Below, one piece after another: positions 12,703 to 62,552 of a stretch of DNA of 64,000 nucleotides (within the stretch, counting starts at the first letter, position 1; every line of letters begins with the position of its first letter). The notes beneath the pieces were generated by a model. It did not search any database, was not told the DNA's origin, and saw only the letters and a list, made by a program, of their open reading frames with translations. The translations under genes and the position numbers were made by a program. Source of the stretch: Victivallaceae bacterium (lineage in GTDB: Bacteria > Verrucomicrobiota > Lentisphaeria > Victivallales > Victivallaceae). Location: contig JAKSOF010000007.1 in the NCBI GenBank assembly GCA_024405735.1, forward strand, positions 1 through 64,000, read 5' to 3'.

Positions 12703-12778
12703 GCGAGTGTAGCTCAGTTGGTAGAGCATCACGTTGCCAACGTGATTGTCGCCGGTTCGATTCCGGTCACTCGCTCCA
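12703..12778 (+). tRNA. tRNA-Gly (GCC), copy 1
   Basis: 76 nt. Acceptor stem GCGAGTG/CACTCGC, anticodon loop TTGCCAA (GCC), T arm GGTTCGATTCC, encoded CCA. Confidence 0.95.
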
Positions 12779-12802
12779 TTTTTTATGTTGTGCATTTCAA
12801 GT

Positions 12803-12878
12803 GCGAGTGTAGCTCAGTTGGTAGAGCATCACGTTGCCAACGTGATTGTCGCCGGTTCGATTCCGGTCACTCGCTCCA
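12803..12878 (+). tRNA. tRNA-Gly (GCC), copy 2
   Basis: Identical to the first copy over all 76 nt, 24 bp downstream. Both are presumably made from the single promoter at 12660-12688. The identity points to recent duplication or gene conversion. Confidence 0.95.
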
Positions 12879-12880
12879 TT

Positions 12881-13724
12881 TTTTTTGCCTTGATGGCAAA
12901 AAAAGTGAAATGCGACGAAAGGCGCATTTCGTTTCACAGACGCGTCATCATTGCGTAATTTTGTCTTTTCCCGGGTGCATTCGTGTTTATTCGCGATTAA
13001 AAATACCGTCGGGCGGGGAAATACAGAGCGTGAGCGGTACAAAGAGAGGACAACCGTACCGGTTTTCCCCTCTTTGCAATCTTCCTTTTTCCTTGCGTCC
13101 GCGATTTGTGCGAATGGGGTAATTCCCTTAATTTCGTACGCCTGCGTTCGCCTCATTACATTCGGCTCACTCGCGGCTACCGTGCTCGTCTACGGTCGCA
13201 TTTCCCCCTTAAAATCTGCGATTTTCGGGGGAGCCCCCGCGCTCCCGCGCATTCCGTCTTCGCCCTGCGGGCTACGCCGTGACGAGCCGTTCCTCATTTG
13301 GCTTGTCCGCCATAGCCTTGGCGGAGGTGGATACTCGCGGCTTCGCGTATGGTAGTTTTTATTTTTCTTCCAACTGTTTGCGCATTTCCGCATTGCGGGC
13401 AATGCGTAAAATCGCTCCCATCCGACTGCGCGCTCGGCGGCAACCGCCTCGCATCCGACGGCAATTTAATGTGTGCGGTTTTTCATTTCGCCCGCAGGGC
13501 GAGAGAAACATCAGCGTGGGAGTATCGCATCTCGGGCAGTCGGGCGGACGGCGCGCGAAAGCGCGAAGTATTAGCCCGCGTGGGACGCCCGTCCTCTTTG
13601 CGGTAACAAACAGACGAGCCCGCAGAGATTTGCGGTGACATTCGTTTAGAGTGCGGACAAAACGATTATCCGCAAATATCTGCGGCAACTACAGATCCCG
13701 CCTGTGGCGGGCGCTTGGGGAGTT
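12881..13724. other. Gene-free stretch with hairpins and a dispersed repeat
   Basis: No open frame here has a plausible ribosome site or recognisable protein. The region has several perfect hairpins, for example GAAATGCG/CGCATTTC at about 12906-12931, TCCGCCA/TGGCGGA near 13306-13325 and CCGCAAA-type arms near 13670. It also carries one copy of the 38-bp dispersed repeat. It looks like accumulated repeat debris rather than a gene; a structured RNA is not excluded. Confidence 0.5.
12975..13012. repeat. 38-bp dispersed repeat, copy 1
   Basis: GTGCATTCGTGTTTATTCGC followed by GATTAAAAATACCGTCGG. It differs at two positions from the copy at 19099-19136. Confidence 0.7.
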
Positions 13725-18714: not shown

Positions 18715-18741
18715 TTTTTTCAAAAGCATTTGAAAAAATGG
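18712..18741 (+). terminator. Perfect hairpin that includes the tRNA-Leu CCA end
   Basis: CCATTTTTTCAAA and TTTGAAAAAATGG form a perfect 13-bp stem with loop AGCA. The left arm contains the encoded CCA, so the trailer can pair with the tRNA 3' end. It may act in termination or 3' processing. The right arm is also the start of the 127-bp tandem repeat. Confidence 0.55.
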
Positions 18742-19028
18742 TCCGCGTCAGGGACTTCTTGACGGGGTTGCCCTCGCTCCGCTTTGCTTCGCTCGCGCAC
18801 CTCGGCGGCTTCGCCGCCTCCGTCAAGTCCCTTGCTCGCGCAGGAAGTGGAATCGTTTGAAAAAATGGTACGGTCAAGGGACTTCTTGACGGGGTTGCCC
18901 TCGCTCCGCTTTGCTTCGCTCGCGCACCTCGGCGGCTTCGCCGCCTCCGTCAAGCCCCTTGCTCGCGCAGGAAGTGGAATCGTTTGAAAAAATGGTACGG
19001 TCAAGGGCCTTCTTGACGGGGTTGCCCT
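18729..19028. repeat. 127-bp tandem repeat, about 2.4 copies
   Basis: Units begin at 18729, 18856 and 18983 with TTTGAAAAAATGGT and are nearly identical; the third is cut at about 19028. Each full unit holds AAGGGACTTCTTGACGG-like and CCGTCAAG.CCCTT arms enclosing a GGCGGCTTCGCCGCC hairpin, so each can fold on itself. No protein is recognisable in any frame. Confidence 0.85.
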
Positions 19029-57517: not shown

Positions 57518-59122
57518 ATGAAGCATATATTCCGTAAGATGCTTGCCGCATCACTGTTCACCGCGCTGGCGGCGGGCTGTTCCGCGCCTGCCAAAAAACA
57601 TTTCGATGTCAAGGATTACGAATACGCGATGGGGGAAAAATACCTCGCGCAATGGAATGACGAGGAAAATGCGCGCATCGAGCGCGATATTGAAAAATAC
57701 CGCAAGGCGGACGGCGTTTTCGCGCTCGACGTTCCCGCCGGGACGGAGGTTCAAGTCGAGCAGACGCGCCACGCCTTCTTTTTCGGCGCGCACATCTTTG
57801 ACTTCGACCAGTTGCCGAGCGACGAAGCGAACGCGAAATTCAAGGCGATGTGGAAGGAGCTTTTCAACTCGGCGACGATCCCATTTTACTGGAAAGATTA
57901 CGAGCCCGAGCCCGGTTTTTACCGCGATGACGTGACGCCGGACAATACGCCGGAATTCTGGCAGAGTTGCAAAGAGCCGTACAAAGAGCGTTTCTACCGC
58001 AAACCGCCGGTCAAAGTATTGCTTGACTTCTGCGATGCCCATCATATCCGCAAACACGGGCATCCGTTGGTGTGGGGATGCAACACGTGTCTGCCCGCGT
58101 GGTATTGGGAGAAACTTCCCAAAGAGATCACGGAATCGGAATTTTTCAAAAAGAATTTTCAGTACAACGATCCCGCAACGAAAAAACTGGGGTGGACGAA
58201 CTACTGGTGCGTGACGGGAAATCTGACGGAGGAGCAGTTTGCCGAAAAGTTCCCCGATTACTGCAAATTCGTCAATGATTCGTTTATGAACCGCGTCGTC
58301 AATATCTGCAAAAAATACGGCGACCGCTTCGACTCTTGGGATGTCGTCAACGAGAGCGCCGTCGACACGATGCCGCGCGAGTATCTCGGGGGCGCGCCGC
58401 GTATGGTGCCGGGCGGCAAAATCACCAAAAGCATCTACGGCGCGATGCCGGGCGATTACGTCTACCGGAGTTTCAAGATCGCGGCGGAAAATCTGCCCGA
58501 CCGTGCATGGCTTAACATCAACGATGTGCCGTACCAATATAAAAACGCCCTTTACGTCGAGCAGATCAAAAATCTTTTGAAACGCGGCGCGAAAATCGAT
58601 GTCATCGGTTGCCAGATGCATATTTTCCGCGCCTCCGATACCGAGGCGATCGCCAAGGGCGAGGGGGAATTGAAAGGCGAAGCCGGCGATCAAAGTCCCG
58701 CGATGGTACGGGGTGCGTTGGAGCCTTTGATGGAGATCGGGAAACCCCTCCATTTGAGCGAGATTACCATTATGGCGCCGGGCAACGATGCGCGCGGCGA
58801 AGCGATCCAGGCGGTGATCGCCTACAACTTGTACCGGCTGTGGTTCAGTTTGCCCGCGATGAATGGCATCACCTGGTGGAACACGGTCGATTTCCGCAGT
58901 CACTTCGAGTGTTTCCCCTCCGGCATCCTGCGTCCCGATATGAGCAAAAAGCCGGTTTACTTCGCGCTCGACGATCTCATCAACTGTCAGTGGAAAACGA
59001 AATTGACCGTCAAAGCCGACAAGGACGGCAAAATTTCCTTCCGGGGATTCCGCGGCACGTATCGCGTGACGTGGCAAGACGCCGACGGCAAATGTCGGGA
59101 AAAGACGGTCGAACTCAAATAA
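57518..59122 (+). CDS. GH10 xylanase-like lipoprotein, paralog A
   Basis: A 534-residue lipoprotein; the lipobox is LAAGC near residue 21. The GH10 barrel has the acid/base glutamate in SWDVVNES and the nucleophile in LHLSEITI. HGHPLVWG, at the family's substrate-binding strand, is conserved. The last 80 residues (VYFALDDLIN to the end) form a small beta-domain. It shares almost identical terminal segments with the next gene. AGGAG precedes the ATG. Confidence 0.88.
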   Translation: MKHIFRKMLAASLFTALAAGCSAPAKKHFDVKDYEYAMGEKYLAQWNDEENARIERDIEKYRKADGVFALDVPAGTEVQVEQTRHAFFFGAHIFDFDQLPSDEANAKFKAMWKELFNSATIPFYWKDYEPEPGFYRDDVTPDNTPEFWQSCKEPYKERFYRKPPVKVLLDFCDAHHIRKHGHPLVWGCNTCLPAWYWEKLPKEITESEFFKKNFQYNDPATKKLGWTNYWCVTGNLTEEQFAEKFPDYCKFVNDSFMNRVVNICKKYGDRFDSWDVVNESAVDTMPREYLGGAPRMVPGGKITKSIYGAMPGDYVYRSFKIAAENLPDRAWLNINDVPYQYKNALYVEQIKNLLKRGAKIDVIGCQMHIFRASDTEAIAKGEGELKGEAGDQSPAMVRGALEPLMEIGKPLHLSEITIMAPGNDARGEAIQAVIAYNLYRLWFSLPAMNGITWWNTVDFRSHFECFPSGILRPDMSKKPVYFALDDLINCQWKTKLTVKADKDGKISFRGFRGTYRVTWQDADGKCREKTVELK

Positions 59123-59202: not shown

Positions 59203-60804
59203 ATGTTTTTATCAAAAAAAGCAGAAAAGATGAAAAAGGAGTTGTTGCTTGCGGCGATCGTCGCCCTGACGGCGGGGTGTTCGGCACCCGTGACAAAGCA
59301 TTTCGACGTTAAGGATTACGAGTATGCGATGGGGGAAAAGTACCTCGCGCAATGGAATGACGAGGAAAACGCGCGCATCGACCGCGATATTGAAAAATAC
59401 CGCAAGGCGGACGGCGTTTTCGCGCTCAACGTTCCCGAAGGAACGAAAGTTCAGGTCGAGCAGACGCGCCACGCCTTCCTCTTTGGTGCGCAATGCTTTA
59501 ACTACCGGCAGCTGGAGTCGGCAGAAAAAAACGCCGCTTATGAAAGGCTCTTTCAAACGCTTTTCAACGGTGCGACGATCCCGATGTTCTGGAAGGAGTC
59601 CGAACCCGAAAAGGGCAAACTCCACACCGGTTTTTCCGCGGACGACTGTGTGGATTTCTGGGCGGTTTGCTCCGATCGTGAAAAACAGCGTTTTTGGCGC
59701 CGTCCGGCGATTACCCCGATCATCGATTTCTGCGACCGCAACGATCTGCGCAAGCACGGACACCTCTTTTTCTGGGGCAACACCCGCCGCAACGTGCCGA
59801 ACTGGCTTTTGAAAGACATCCGCGAACGCTACTTTGCACGTCCCGTCGTCGCCGCAAAAGTGAAGTGGGTCGACGAAGCCCGTACGATTCCCGATGATTT
59901 GACCTACAACGCCATTTTTGAAGAGATGACGCCCGAGGAATTTGCGAAAAAAGAAAAGGAGTTCGTCGCTGAACTCGATCAACTCTGGTTCGATCACATG
60001 AATCAACTGATCCGGCTGTACGGCAACCGCATCGACAGTTGGGACGTCGTCAACGAGGCGTCGATTGAAATGCGTCCCGACGAAAACGGCAACGCGCGGC
60101 TCGTCGAAAATTCGGCGATCTGCCGCAGTTTTTACGGCCCGATGCCGGGCGATTACGTCGCGCGCGCTTTTCTCTGCGCCAAGATGAAACTGCCCGAATC
60201 GGCAAAACTTTTCATCAACGACTACGCGATGTGCGACAGTACGATGCAGCAACTTTACGTCGACCTGATTTCGCAGTTGAAAAAACGGCAGTGCCGTATC
60301 GACGGCATCGGGTGTCAGGTGCACCTCTTTCAAAAACAGGTCGTGCGCGAGATGATCGGGGGAAAAAGCGATTATCATTCTCCCCGTTGGGTGCGCGACG
60401 CTTATCAAAAGTTATCGGCGCTCGATACCCCGATCCGCATCAGCGAGATCACGATTCCCGCATTGACCTGTGATGAAAAGGGCGAAGCGGAGCAGGCGGT
60501 GCTGGCGTACAATTTGTACCGGCTTTGGTTCAGCCTGGAAAAAGTCGAGGGGATCACCTGGTGGAACCTCATCGACGGCTTGACCGCCGGCAAGGAAAAG
60601 ATGTTTTCCGGCATCTTGCGTCTCGATATGAGCAAAAAGCCGGTTTACTTCGCGCTCGATGATCTCATCAACCGTCAGTGGAAAACGAAATTGACCGTCA
60701 AAGCCGACAAGGACGGCAAGATTTCCTTCCGGGGATTCCGCGGCACATATAAAGCAACGTGGAAAGAAGGGGGAAGGGAAAGAGTTGTAAGTTTTAAGTT
60801 ATAA
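59203..60804 (+). CDS. GH10 xylanase-like lipoprotein, paralog B
   Basis: A 533-residue paralog of the preceding gene; the lipobox is LTAGC near residue 27. Catalytic glutamates are in SWDVVNEA and RISEITIP; HGHLFFWG replaces HGHPLVWG, so subsite binding may differ. The N-terminal and C-terminal segments match paralog A nearly base for base while the middle is divergent. The last codons (VVSFKL and the stop) come from the left arm of the palindromic element at 60787. A second ATG at 59230 is an equally good start; neither has a clear ribosome site. Confidence 0.85.
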   Translation: MFLSKKAEKMKKELLLAAIVALTAGCSAPVTKHFDVKDYEYAMGEKYLAQWNDEENARIDRDIEKYRKADGVFALNVPEGTKVQVEQTRHAFLFGAQCFNYRQLESAEKNAAYERLFQTLFNGATIPMFWKESEPEKGKLHTGFSADDCVDFWAVCSDREKQRFWRRPAITPIIDFCDRNDLRKHGHLFFWGNTRRNVPNWLLKDIRERYFARPVVAAKVKWVDEARTIPDDLTYNAIFEEMTPEEFAKKEKEFVAELDQLWFDHMNQLIRLYGNRIDSWDVVNEASIEMRPDENGNARLVENSAICRSFYGPMPGDYVARAFLCAKMKLPESAKLFINDYAMCDSTMQQLYVDLISQLKKRQCRIDGIGCQVHLFQKQVVREMIGGKSDYHSPRWVRDAYQKLSALDTPIRISEITIPALTCDEKGEAEQAVLAYNLYRLWFSLEKVEGITWWNLIDGLTAGKEKMFSGILRLDMSKKPVYFALDDLINRQWKTKLTVKADKDGKISFRGFRGTYKATWKEGGRERVVSFKL

Positions 60805-61029
60805 GTTTTAAGTGCTTGGTCGGGGGCTCTGCCCCCGCGCCCCTGAATGCGCAAACGCATCACGTTTGCTTACAGAGCGATACAAAACGGCAGTACGCGA
60901 TTTGTTTGGTCAATGCGTACTGCCGTTTGCTTTTTTAAGCCGACACGATGTGTCGGCGCATTTCAGGAGTCTTGAGGGCAGTTGCCCTCAAGCCAAGCAC
61001 TTAAAACTTAAAACTTATAACTAAAAACT
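60787..61029. mobile_element. MITE-like palindromic element with nested hairpins
   Basis: Terminal inverted repeats contain AAGTTTTAAGTGCTTGG (left) and CCAAGCACTTAAAACTT (right). Inside are five perfect hairpins: GGGGGC/GCCCCC (60822-60836), GCAAACG/CGTTTGC (60851-60869), a 14-bp stem at 60885-60928, GCCGACAC/GTGTCGGC (60939-60957) and CTTGAGGGC/GCCCTCAAG (60971-60992). CCTGAATGCGC and GCGCATTTCAGG pair around the middle three. No transposase is encoded. It provides the stop codon of the upstream GH10 gene. A structured RNA is an alternative. Confidence 0.65.
60885..60936 (+). terminator. Intrinsic terminator inside the palindromic element
   Basis: AAACGGCAGTACGC and GCGTACTGCCGTTT form a perfect 14-bp stem, followed by GCTTTTTT. 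It lies between the convergent GH10 and DUF1846 genes and would end transcription from the left. Confidence 0.65.
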
Positions 61030-61034
61030 CTGTT

Positions 61035-62552
61035 TTACTCCATAAACAGATTCCGGCTGGCGAAAATCGGTTCGGCAGTCAGATTGATGCCGAGCTTGCG
61101 CAAACCGGCTTCATCTCCGGCGTGGGGGAGGTGGCTCATGTGCATTTCACAGCCGGAAAGTTTGGAAAGTTGCTCCATCGCCAGACCGACTGCGGGATTG
61201 CTGGGGACGCTGACGCTCAACGCGGTCAGCGTTTCCGCAAGCGTGAGGCTCAACTGTTTGGCGTGAAGGATCTCCCGTTTGAGTCTGCCGACCGAATGAA
61301 TGACTTCATTGGAAAGCAGCGGCAAAGCGGGGGGCAGTCCGGCGAGCGTTTTGATCGCGTTGAGCACGCAACTTGACGCCGCGTGAAAGAGCGGGGAATT
61401 TTTGCCGGTGACGATCCTGCCGTCGGGCAATTCGATCGCGGCGCCGCAGAATGTGCCGTCGTTGCCTTTGTCCGGCTCCTTTGCCGCTTCGAGCGCGGCA
61501 TTGTGCGCCGCCTGGACGACTTTGCGGTCGAATTCGCTTGCGCCGACGTTTTCCAGCATGATCTTGATCCTTTCGGCGGCGGATTTTTCGCCGCGGCCGT
61601 TGGCGTAATCGGCGAGGGCGCGGTAATAACGGCGGATGATCTCCTGGATCGCCGCTGCGCGTACCGCTTCGTCGTCGCTGATCGCGAAACCGACGCGGTT
61701 GACGCCCATTTCCGTCGGCGAGGCGTAAAGTTGCTCCGGCGGCATGATGCGCGCCAGGATCCGGCGGATCACCGGAAAGACTTCGATGTCGCGGTTGTAG
61801 TTGGTCGCGGTTTCGCCGCGCGCTTCGAGGTGAAACGGATCGACCATGTTGACGTCGCCCAGATCCGCCGTCGCCGCCTCGTAGGCGATGTTGACGGGGT
61901 GATTGAGCGGCAGATTCCAGACGGGGAAAGTTTCAAATTTCGCATAGCCCGCGCGCACGCCGCGCTGAAATTCGTGGTAGACCTGCGACATGCAAGTGCC
62001 CGCCTTGCCGGAATTCGGTCCCGGCCCCGTCACGACGACGATCGGGCGCGTCGTTTCGATGTAGGCGTTGGCGCCGTACCCTGCGGGGCTTGCGATCGTA
62101 TCGACGTCGTTGGGGTAGCCTTCGATCGGACGGTGCGTGTAGACTTTGATGCCGCGCCGCGCAAGTTTGTTGATAAAGGGCTTGACCGACGGCTGATCGC
62201 GGTAACGGGTGACGACGACGGCGCAGACGTCCAGCCCCCAGTCGCGGAGATCGTCGATGGTTTTCATCGTGTCGACGTCGTAGGAAAGTCCGAAATCGGC
62301 GCGGATCTTGCGTTCCTCGATGGCTCCGGCGTGGATGCAGATGATGATGTCGACCTTGTCCTTGAGGCATTGGAGCAGTTTGATTTTCGCATTGGGGTCG
62401 AATCCGGGCAGGACGCGCGCCGCGTGGTAGTCGCAGACGAGTTTGCCGCCGAATTCAAGGTAAAGTTTGTCGTCGAATTTGCCCGCGCGCTCCAAGATCG
62501 CGGCGGACTGTTCTTTCAGATACTTGTCACTGTCAAAGCCGATTTTCGTCAT
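61035..62552 (-). CDS. DUF1846 (UPF0371) family protein
   Basis: A 505-residue protein of normal length for this family. The start TKIGFDSDKYLKEQSAAILERA, the P-loop-like VVVTGPGPNSGKAGTC and GYPNDVDTIASPAGYGANAY are characteristic. Structures of relatives show a nucleotide-binding fold, but biochemical function is not firmly known. No signal peptide. It is transcribed alone on the minus strand. Confidence 0.88.
   Translation of the reverse strand: MTKIGFDSDKYLKEQSAAILERAGKFDDKLYLEFGGKLVCDYHAARVLPGFDPNAKIKLLQCLKDKVDIIICIHAGAIEERKIRADFGLSYDVDTMKTIDDLRDWGLDVCAVVVTRYRDQPSVKPFINKLARRGIKVYTHRPIEGYPNDVDTIASPAGYGANAYIETTRPIVVVTGPGPNSGKAGTCMSQVYHEFQRGVRAGYAKFETFPVWNLPLNHPVNIAYEAATADLGDVNMVDPFHLEARGETATNYNRDIEVFPVIRRILARIMPPEQLYASPTEMGVNRVGFAISDDEAVRAAAIQEIIRRYYRALADYANGRGEKSAAERIKIMLENVGASEFDRKVVQAAHNAALEAAKEPDKGNDGTFCGAAIELPDGRIVTGKNSPLFHAASSCVLNAIKTLAGLPPALPLLSNEVIHSVGRLKREILHAKQLSLTLAETLTALSVSVPSNPAVGLAMEQLSKLSGCEMHMSHLPHAGDEAGLRKLGINLTAEPIFASRNLFME

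Follow-up and report, generated by a model that had tools for sequence, protein, structure and literature searches.

Between a GH10 gene and the convergent DUF1846 gene of an uncultured gut bacterium (a Victivallales/Lentisphaeria MAG of 1.89 Mb in 26 contigs, 97% complete), we found one copy of a real multi-copy, structured and dispersed repeat, which is MITE/BIME-like in its action and not a proven member of either class. The reading that we favour, with somewhat better than even confidence, is that of a recent, lineage-specific, non-autonomous mosaic hairpin repeat of the MITE/BIME kind, which settles behind stop codons and probably terminates transcription. The window, that is, the whole stretch of DNA analysed, comprised 64,000 nt, and the locus was organized as follows.

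59203 to 60804, + strand: GH10 gene (Pfam), with its stop codon within the left heptamers.
60783 to 60810, + strand: left outer arm, four tandem AGTTWWA-type heptamers; the AG at 60781-60782 also pairs.
60811 to 60819, + strand: AGTGCTTGG box at the boundary between heptamers and hairpin A; partner of 60993-61001.
60821 to 60837, + strand: hairpin A, type a, CGGGGGC TCT GCCCCCG, -14.1 kcal/mol.
60851 to 60869, + strand: hairpin B, stem allele AAACG(C).
60885 to 60936, + strand: terminator-like hairpin C (60885-60928; 14-bp stem 60885-60898/60915-60928) with its T6 tail (60931-60936).
60939 to 60957, + strand: hairpin D, the right-arm hairpin B, stem allele CGACAC.
60971 to 60992, + strand: hairpin E, the right-arm hairpin A, type b, CTTGAGGGCA..TGCCCTCAAG.
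60993 to 61001, + strand: CCAAGCACT, complement of the AGTGCTTGG box.
61002 to 61029, + strand: right outer arm, four inverted heptamers.
61035 to 62552, - strand: DUF1846 gene (Pfam), convergent, with its stop 5 bp off the right end of the element.

The element spanned 60783-61029 (247 bp), or 247-251 bp if the outermost pairs at 60781-61031 are taken into account, and its start (60783, or 60781 with these pairs) lay slightly upstream of the position 60787 given in a preliminary description. Reading inwards, each side began with four tandem heptamers (AGTTWWA) and the AGTGCTTGG box, after which came one hairpin (A on the left, E on the right), a linker, and another hairpin (B on the left, D on the right). 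In the middle stood the 14-bp hairpin C, then six T, with GCTTTTTT following the hairpin. The outer inverted arms (60781-60819 and 60993-61031) were 39 nt long and 90% complementary, and the inner arms (60846-60872 and 60936-60962) were 74% complementary. When folded separately, A, B, C, D, and E each formed a perfect-stem hairpin. The whole element folded at -143.6 kcal/mol (z -12.1), dinucleotide shuffles giving -76.7 +/- 5.5 and 0/200 of them folding as well; the opposite strand gave a z of -13.3. Arm complementarity and folding thus bore out the nested palindrome, with its terminal inverted repeats, inner arm, and five perfect hairpins, that had been noticed initially. One of the five had been described as a good terminator; hairpin C has the GC-rich 14-bp stem and the T6 of an intrinsic terminator. 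It was missed by our terminator scan because its loop of 16 exceeds the limit of 8 allowed in that scan.

The GH10 stop codon, TAA at 60802-60804, was located inside the left heptamer array; hence the element does supply it, as proposed, and the last six residues of the protein (VVSFKL) were encoded by heptamers. It had also been proposed that insertion changed the last residues of GH10. This would hold for those six residues only, because GH10 diverges already upstream of the element, as seen in comparison with an 89%-identical (DNA) relative in genome G018. The window copy has no empty-site counterpart, since the neighbourhood is rearranged: GH10 in G018 and DUF1846 in Lentisphaeria bacterium UBA1791 both have other neighbours. 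The DUF1846 protein was 94% identical to that of UBA1791 and 87% identical to that of a Victivallaceae MAG. Incidentally, GH10 occurs in the window as tandem paralogues (57518-59122 and 59203-60804) that are 51% identical and have similar 3' segments, and more than one GH10 copy is also present in several relatives.

Searching the genome with the element yielded 59 matches, which resolved into 14 two-armed copies (window, C24b, C16a, C16b, C1a, C24d, C11, C26a, C8, C23a, C9, C26b, C4, and C10), three one-armed copies (C3a, C3b, and C24c), and a few fragments, that is, ~17 copies. Fragments included one end (C23b) and heptamer-only remnants at C21 and at the C1 contig end; contigs C1 and C16 both end within heptamer arrays. 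The genome search suggested in the preliminary description thus established that the element is not a single-copy sequence. As judged from the genomes searched, the family appears nearly private to one genome, or confined to one species. An arm model (R1, built from 21 arms) detected 32 arms in the own genome, including a weak one, and the 33 other congeners searched gave no hit at E<=0.01; as 150 candidates were scored per genome, very diverged arms could escape it. By BLAST, 5/60 relatives matched, own genome included. Genome G026 carried one diverged copy (C60:50442), G001 matched across 30 bases of hairpin A, and G042 and G051 matched, as far as their matches were examined, by heptamers alone. 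Class-wide, matches were found in 5/197 genomes, again including the own one, the other four across 21 to 107 bases. The UBA1791 record (G060) and G026, a congener and sister species, were counted as one genome because their matches were identical throughout. A 20-mer search gave no match in named genomes, a set to which the own genome possibly does not belong, and the search for a plasmid, phage, or viral carrier gave no match. Heptamer arrays may also occur on their own: a long AAAACTT array devoid of hairpins was noticed in G042 (L047, C133:7839-7966), which belongs to another family of the order.

Comparison of the copies revealed a modular organization, with three types of hairpin A, at least five stem alleles of hairpin B, additional hairpins inserted in some copies, and a centre that was either short or long. 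A short centre consisted of hairpin C alone, and a long one, in copies of ~430-512 bp, added GTGGGA repeats and a further hairpin. Among two-armed copies, hairpin A was of type a in 12/14 left arms and of type c in 12/14 right arms, type b accounting for the other two on each side; no copy of the 14 had the same type on both sides, which is not significant (0.29 expected). The heptamers numbered from 1 to 8 per arm. We tried and rejected the idea that they form a three-frame stop cassette: 4/31 arms (one short arm of the 32 being dropped) stopped all three frames within 28 nt, with 5.5 expected from shuffles.

Covariation was strong in hairpin B. For each of its stem alleles (AAACGC, CGACAC, CGGCAC/CAGCAC, CGATGC, and CCAAGC), the opposite half of the stem matched. 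Among the 21 insert-free arms, 98.2% of 168 pair cells held standard pairs, versus 26-36% paired in slid controls; double-change cells numbered 28 versus 6.9 +/- 2.6 in shuffles, and covariation was 0.485 versus 0.168. None of 500 shuffles reached the observed value for any of these three measures. Two further measures out of five were not extreme, double-change pairs being attained in 21/500 shuffles and further pair types in 288/500. Compensatory changes are therefore present in hairpin B, which the preliminary description had asked for as a check, and they reflect few independent events because there are only about five alleles. Left and right B alleles were equal in 3/14 copies, with a shuffle mean of 2.8, so we discarded a long-range cruciform or large nested fold as the conserved structure. 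This argues that the local hairpin is the maintained unit, its stems appearing to change as whole blocks. An extra hairpin of the CTTGTCCCGCCGTAGCCTTGGCGAAGGGGGAT type was found in the hairpin B loop of 9/31 arms. In these nine, all 6/6 stem pairs were kept in four arms, 5 in three, 4 in one, and 3 in one, the stem halves being no longer fully matched in five of them. In copies C8, C9, and C11, two B alleles seem to have been joined into a chimera.

Elements lay against stop codons. Around 19 elements or fragments, we counted 15 gene 3' ends within ~20 bp or inside, and a sole 5' end that close (C24d), which depended on the choice of the longest-ORF start. Stops fell within or at the edge of heptamers for GH10, C24c, C8, C4, C23b, and C21. 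Convergent neighbours flanked 5/14 two-armed copies versus 4/45 gene pairs (Fisher p 0.027), as called by our home-made, codon-based gene caller and with the background taken from the 64,000-nt window only. All copies bearing hairpin C (15/15) had a run of 5-7 T on the same strand. From T tails on one strand and location at gene ends, we infer that the element is transcribed and acts as a directional terminator at gene ends. The role would not be universal: by the same caller, the genes on either side of C1a diverge, and a 5' end borders both C23a and C10 on the left, all of which counts against it. In these three copies and in C26a, the left gene does not run into the terminator.

A transcribed, highly structured RNA had also been envisaged, and the one-strand T tail found in 15/15 copies makes it possible. 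A rival explanation is that the element could be a conserved structured non-coding RNA or a cis-regulatory RNA, with its sequence acting in trans, and a strong fold on both strands, covariation, and a conserved T tail would suit such a function. But the repeat is confined to one species, its modules are reshuffled among copies, and the long-range pairing of the large nested fold is not kept. Besides, the promoter scan returned no promoter-like site, and Rfam gave no match at the gathering score (best sub-threshold E 0.32, for 60000-62000). We consider this rival explanation very improbable.

Mobility was assessed by looking at orthologous loci. A clean empty site was found for C4: in the sister species G026, the stop codons of the two convergent genes are 3 nt apart (TAA GTT TCA), and in the own genome a 249-bp element fills this gap and supplies the last residues and the stop of the left gene. 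For C10 and C26b (versus G026) and C1a (versus G061), the flanks were close together without the element, the remaining intergenic DNA being unrelated. At the C9 locus, the sister species has a compound palindrome of its own, distinct from the element. Synteny with UBA1791 was intact for C4, C9, C10, and C26b and broken for the window, C1a, and C8 loci. The target-site duplication that the preliminary description proposed to look for was not detectable in 13 two-armed copies, wherein the mean flanking repeat was 1.85 nt versus 1.83 nt for mismatched flanks.

These data bear on the suggestion that the element is a MITE. Terminal inverted repeats, multiple copies, absence of coding capacity, and dispersal speak for it; a strict MITE is not demonstrated because neither a target-site duplication nor a transposase partner was found. 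As an ordinary MITE, the element would derive from an insertion sequence by internal deletion, and a DDE-type transposase supplied in trans would mobilize it through the heptamer TIRs. In favour of this scenario are the size, copy number, non-coding content, and intergenic location of the element, its inverted ends, which comprise about four heptamers, and its absence from orthologous sites. We nonetheless deem it unlikely, given that target-site repeats do not exceed background, that no coding copy or autonomous element with the same ends was seen among the copies found (in a 26-contig MAG wherein two contigs break at heptamer arrays), and that the ends are tandem heptamers in variable number. 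NEMIS, RUP, and ERIC are named as bacterial MITEs in the accessible part of PMC3733652. The element shares with bacterial MITEs shortness, lack of coding sequence, inverted ends, multiple copies, proximity to coding sequences, and hairpin formation, and differs from them by its heptamer-tandem ends and a modular interior with several hairpin alleles, besides the missing duplication and transposase.

As another possibility, REP hairpins could have been combined into a mosaic of the BIME/REPIN type and mobilized by a RAYT (Y1) transposase. REPs and BIMEs, as described in the accessible portions of PMC3733652 and PMC2817692, consist of oppositely oriented palindromes combined into mosaics downstream of genes, preferentially in convergent or tandem gaps, and the element resembles them in both respects. 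In addition, the hairpin inserted in hairpin B bears GTAG, and the GTAG hairpin is found in 34/197 class genomes. On the other hand, it is an optional insert and not part of the core; the element has a low copy number, with ~17 long composite copies versus the many GTAG- or CGTC-tagged units of 20-40 bp that characterize REPs, and it possesses defined outer arms and a directional terminator. Moreover, the own genome, at 97% completeness, yielded a single decayed Y1_Tnp fragment (20.1 bits, below the cut-off of 23) and no intact RAYT. This origin seems to us quite improbable.

We return to the lineage-specific mosaic repeat favoured above. Each copy would be an assembly of exchangeable hairpin modules between heptamer arms, settling in small gaps immediately past stop codons. 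In the orientation of the element, the central hairpin and its T tail would probably terminate transcription of the upstream gene, and the flanking hairpins may cap or insulate 3' ends; at some loci the stop codon itself is furnished by the heptamer arms. As regards dissemination, we propose with less assurance that copies multiply and intermix through a copying process that leaves no target duplication, whether hairpin-primed, recombination-mediated, or driven by a transposase since lost, and that arms and hairpins are exchanged among copies. The family offers a countable case of a dispersing repeat as a presumed source of transcription terminators, and even of stop codons. Coordinated replacement of whole stems is also relevant to how palindromic repeats in bacteria can disperse and keep their palindromes with no obvious transposase.

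Literature on palindromic or MITE repeats of Lentisphaerae, Victivallis, or Victivallales, mostly outside subscription papers, contained no description of the element, nor did that on modular terminator MITEs or the GTAG hairpin sequence, including the accessible part of PMC4679880; the accessible part of PMC12306157 has no Lentisphaerota or Verrucomicrobia term. Hairpin C, with its tail of 5-7 T in one direction, is like an intrinsic (rho-independent) terminator, and unlike one it rides on a dispersed multi-hairpin cassette instead of being locus-specific. The LIMP palindromes of the Lobosphaera mitochondrion, according to the accessible text of PMC4524435, are intergenic, present in 19 copies, and tied to rearrangements and transcript ends. 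Like the element, they have palindromic arms that consist of a short, tandemly repeated unit and the complement of that unit; LIMP differs in being from an organelle and in forming a single simple stem with a 7-nt loop, without nested hairpin modules.

A second, unrelated compound palindromic family gave 46 matches in the sister species G026 and 15 in the own genome. In G026, it adjoined orthologues of element-flanking genes at 4/11 assignable loci (C24b, C26a, C9, and C26b), C3a, whose flanks belong to a paralogous family, and C16b being dropped as unassignable. Such co-occupancy exceeded chance (p 1.5e-4, or p 1.9e-3 for 3/10 without the query-source locus), a result that is no more than suggestive, as 1,700 intergenic slots were assumed. 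On this basis, we tentatively raise the possibility, which we would not presently bet on, that gene 3' ends in this bacterial family are slots repeatedly colonized by species-private, self-spreading hairpin terminator cassettes, inserting without target duplication and evolving by whole-hairpin swaps. If true, terminators would turn over like mobile elements.

Several other repeats were noticed. Members of the second family include L138:270-880 (G026:C34:110369-110979) and, in the own genome, C6:54719, C22:45922, C3:47, C2:86686, and others; it comprises a dispersed hairpin with the stem CTGTTGC...GCAACAG. The GTAG hairpin, GTAGCYTTRGCGAAGGNGG, possibly a GTAG-type REP inserting into other hairpins, had 37 matches in G130 and also occurred in G040 and G056, versus one match overall for the control; own-genome sites include C4:38687, C16:2142, C23:63468, C24:78138, and C24:100788. 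Finally, the window contains a 127-bp tandem repeat at 18729-19028, which shows a 97% match over 2.4 copies and is bordered by an inverted repeat, and a 100-bp unit at 12703-12884 (1.8 copies, 100% identical) that resembles a duplicated tRNA gene, for which it is a candidate.
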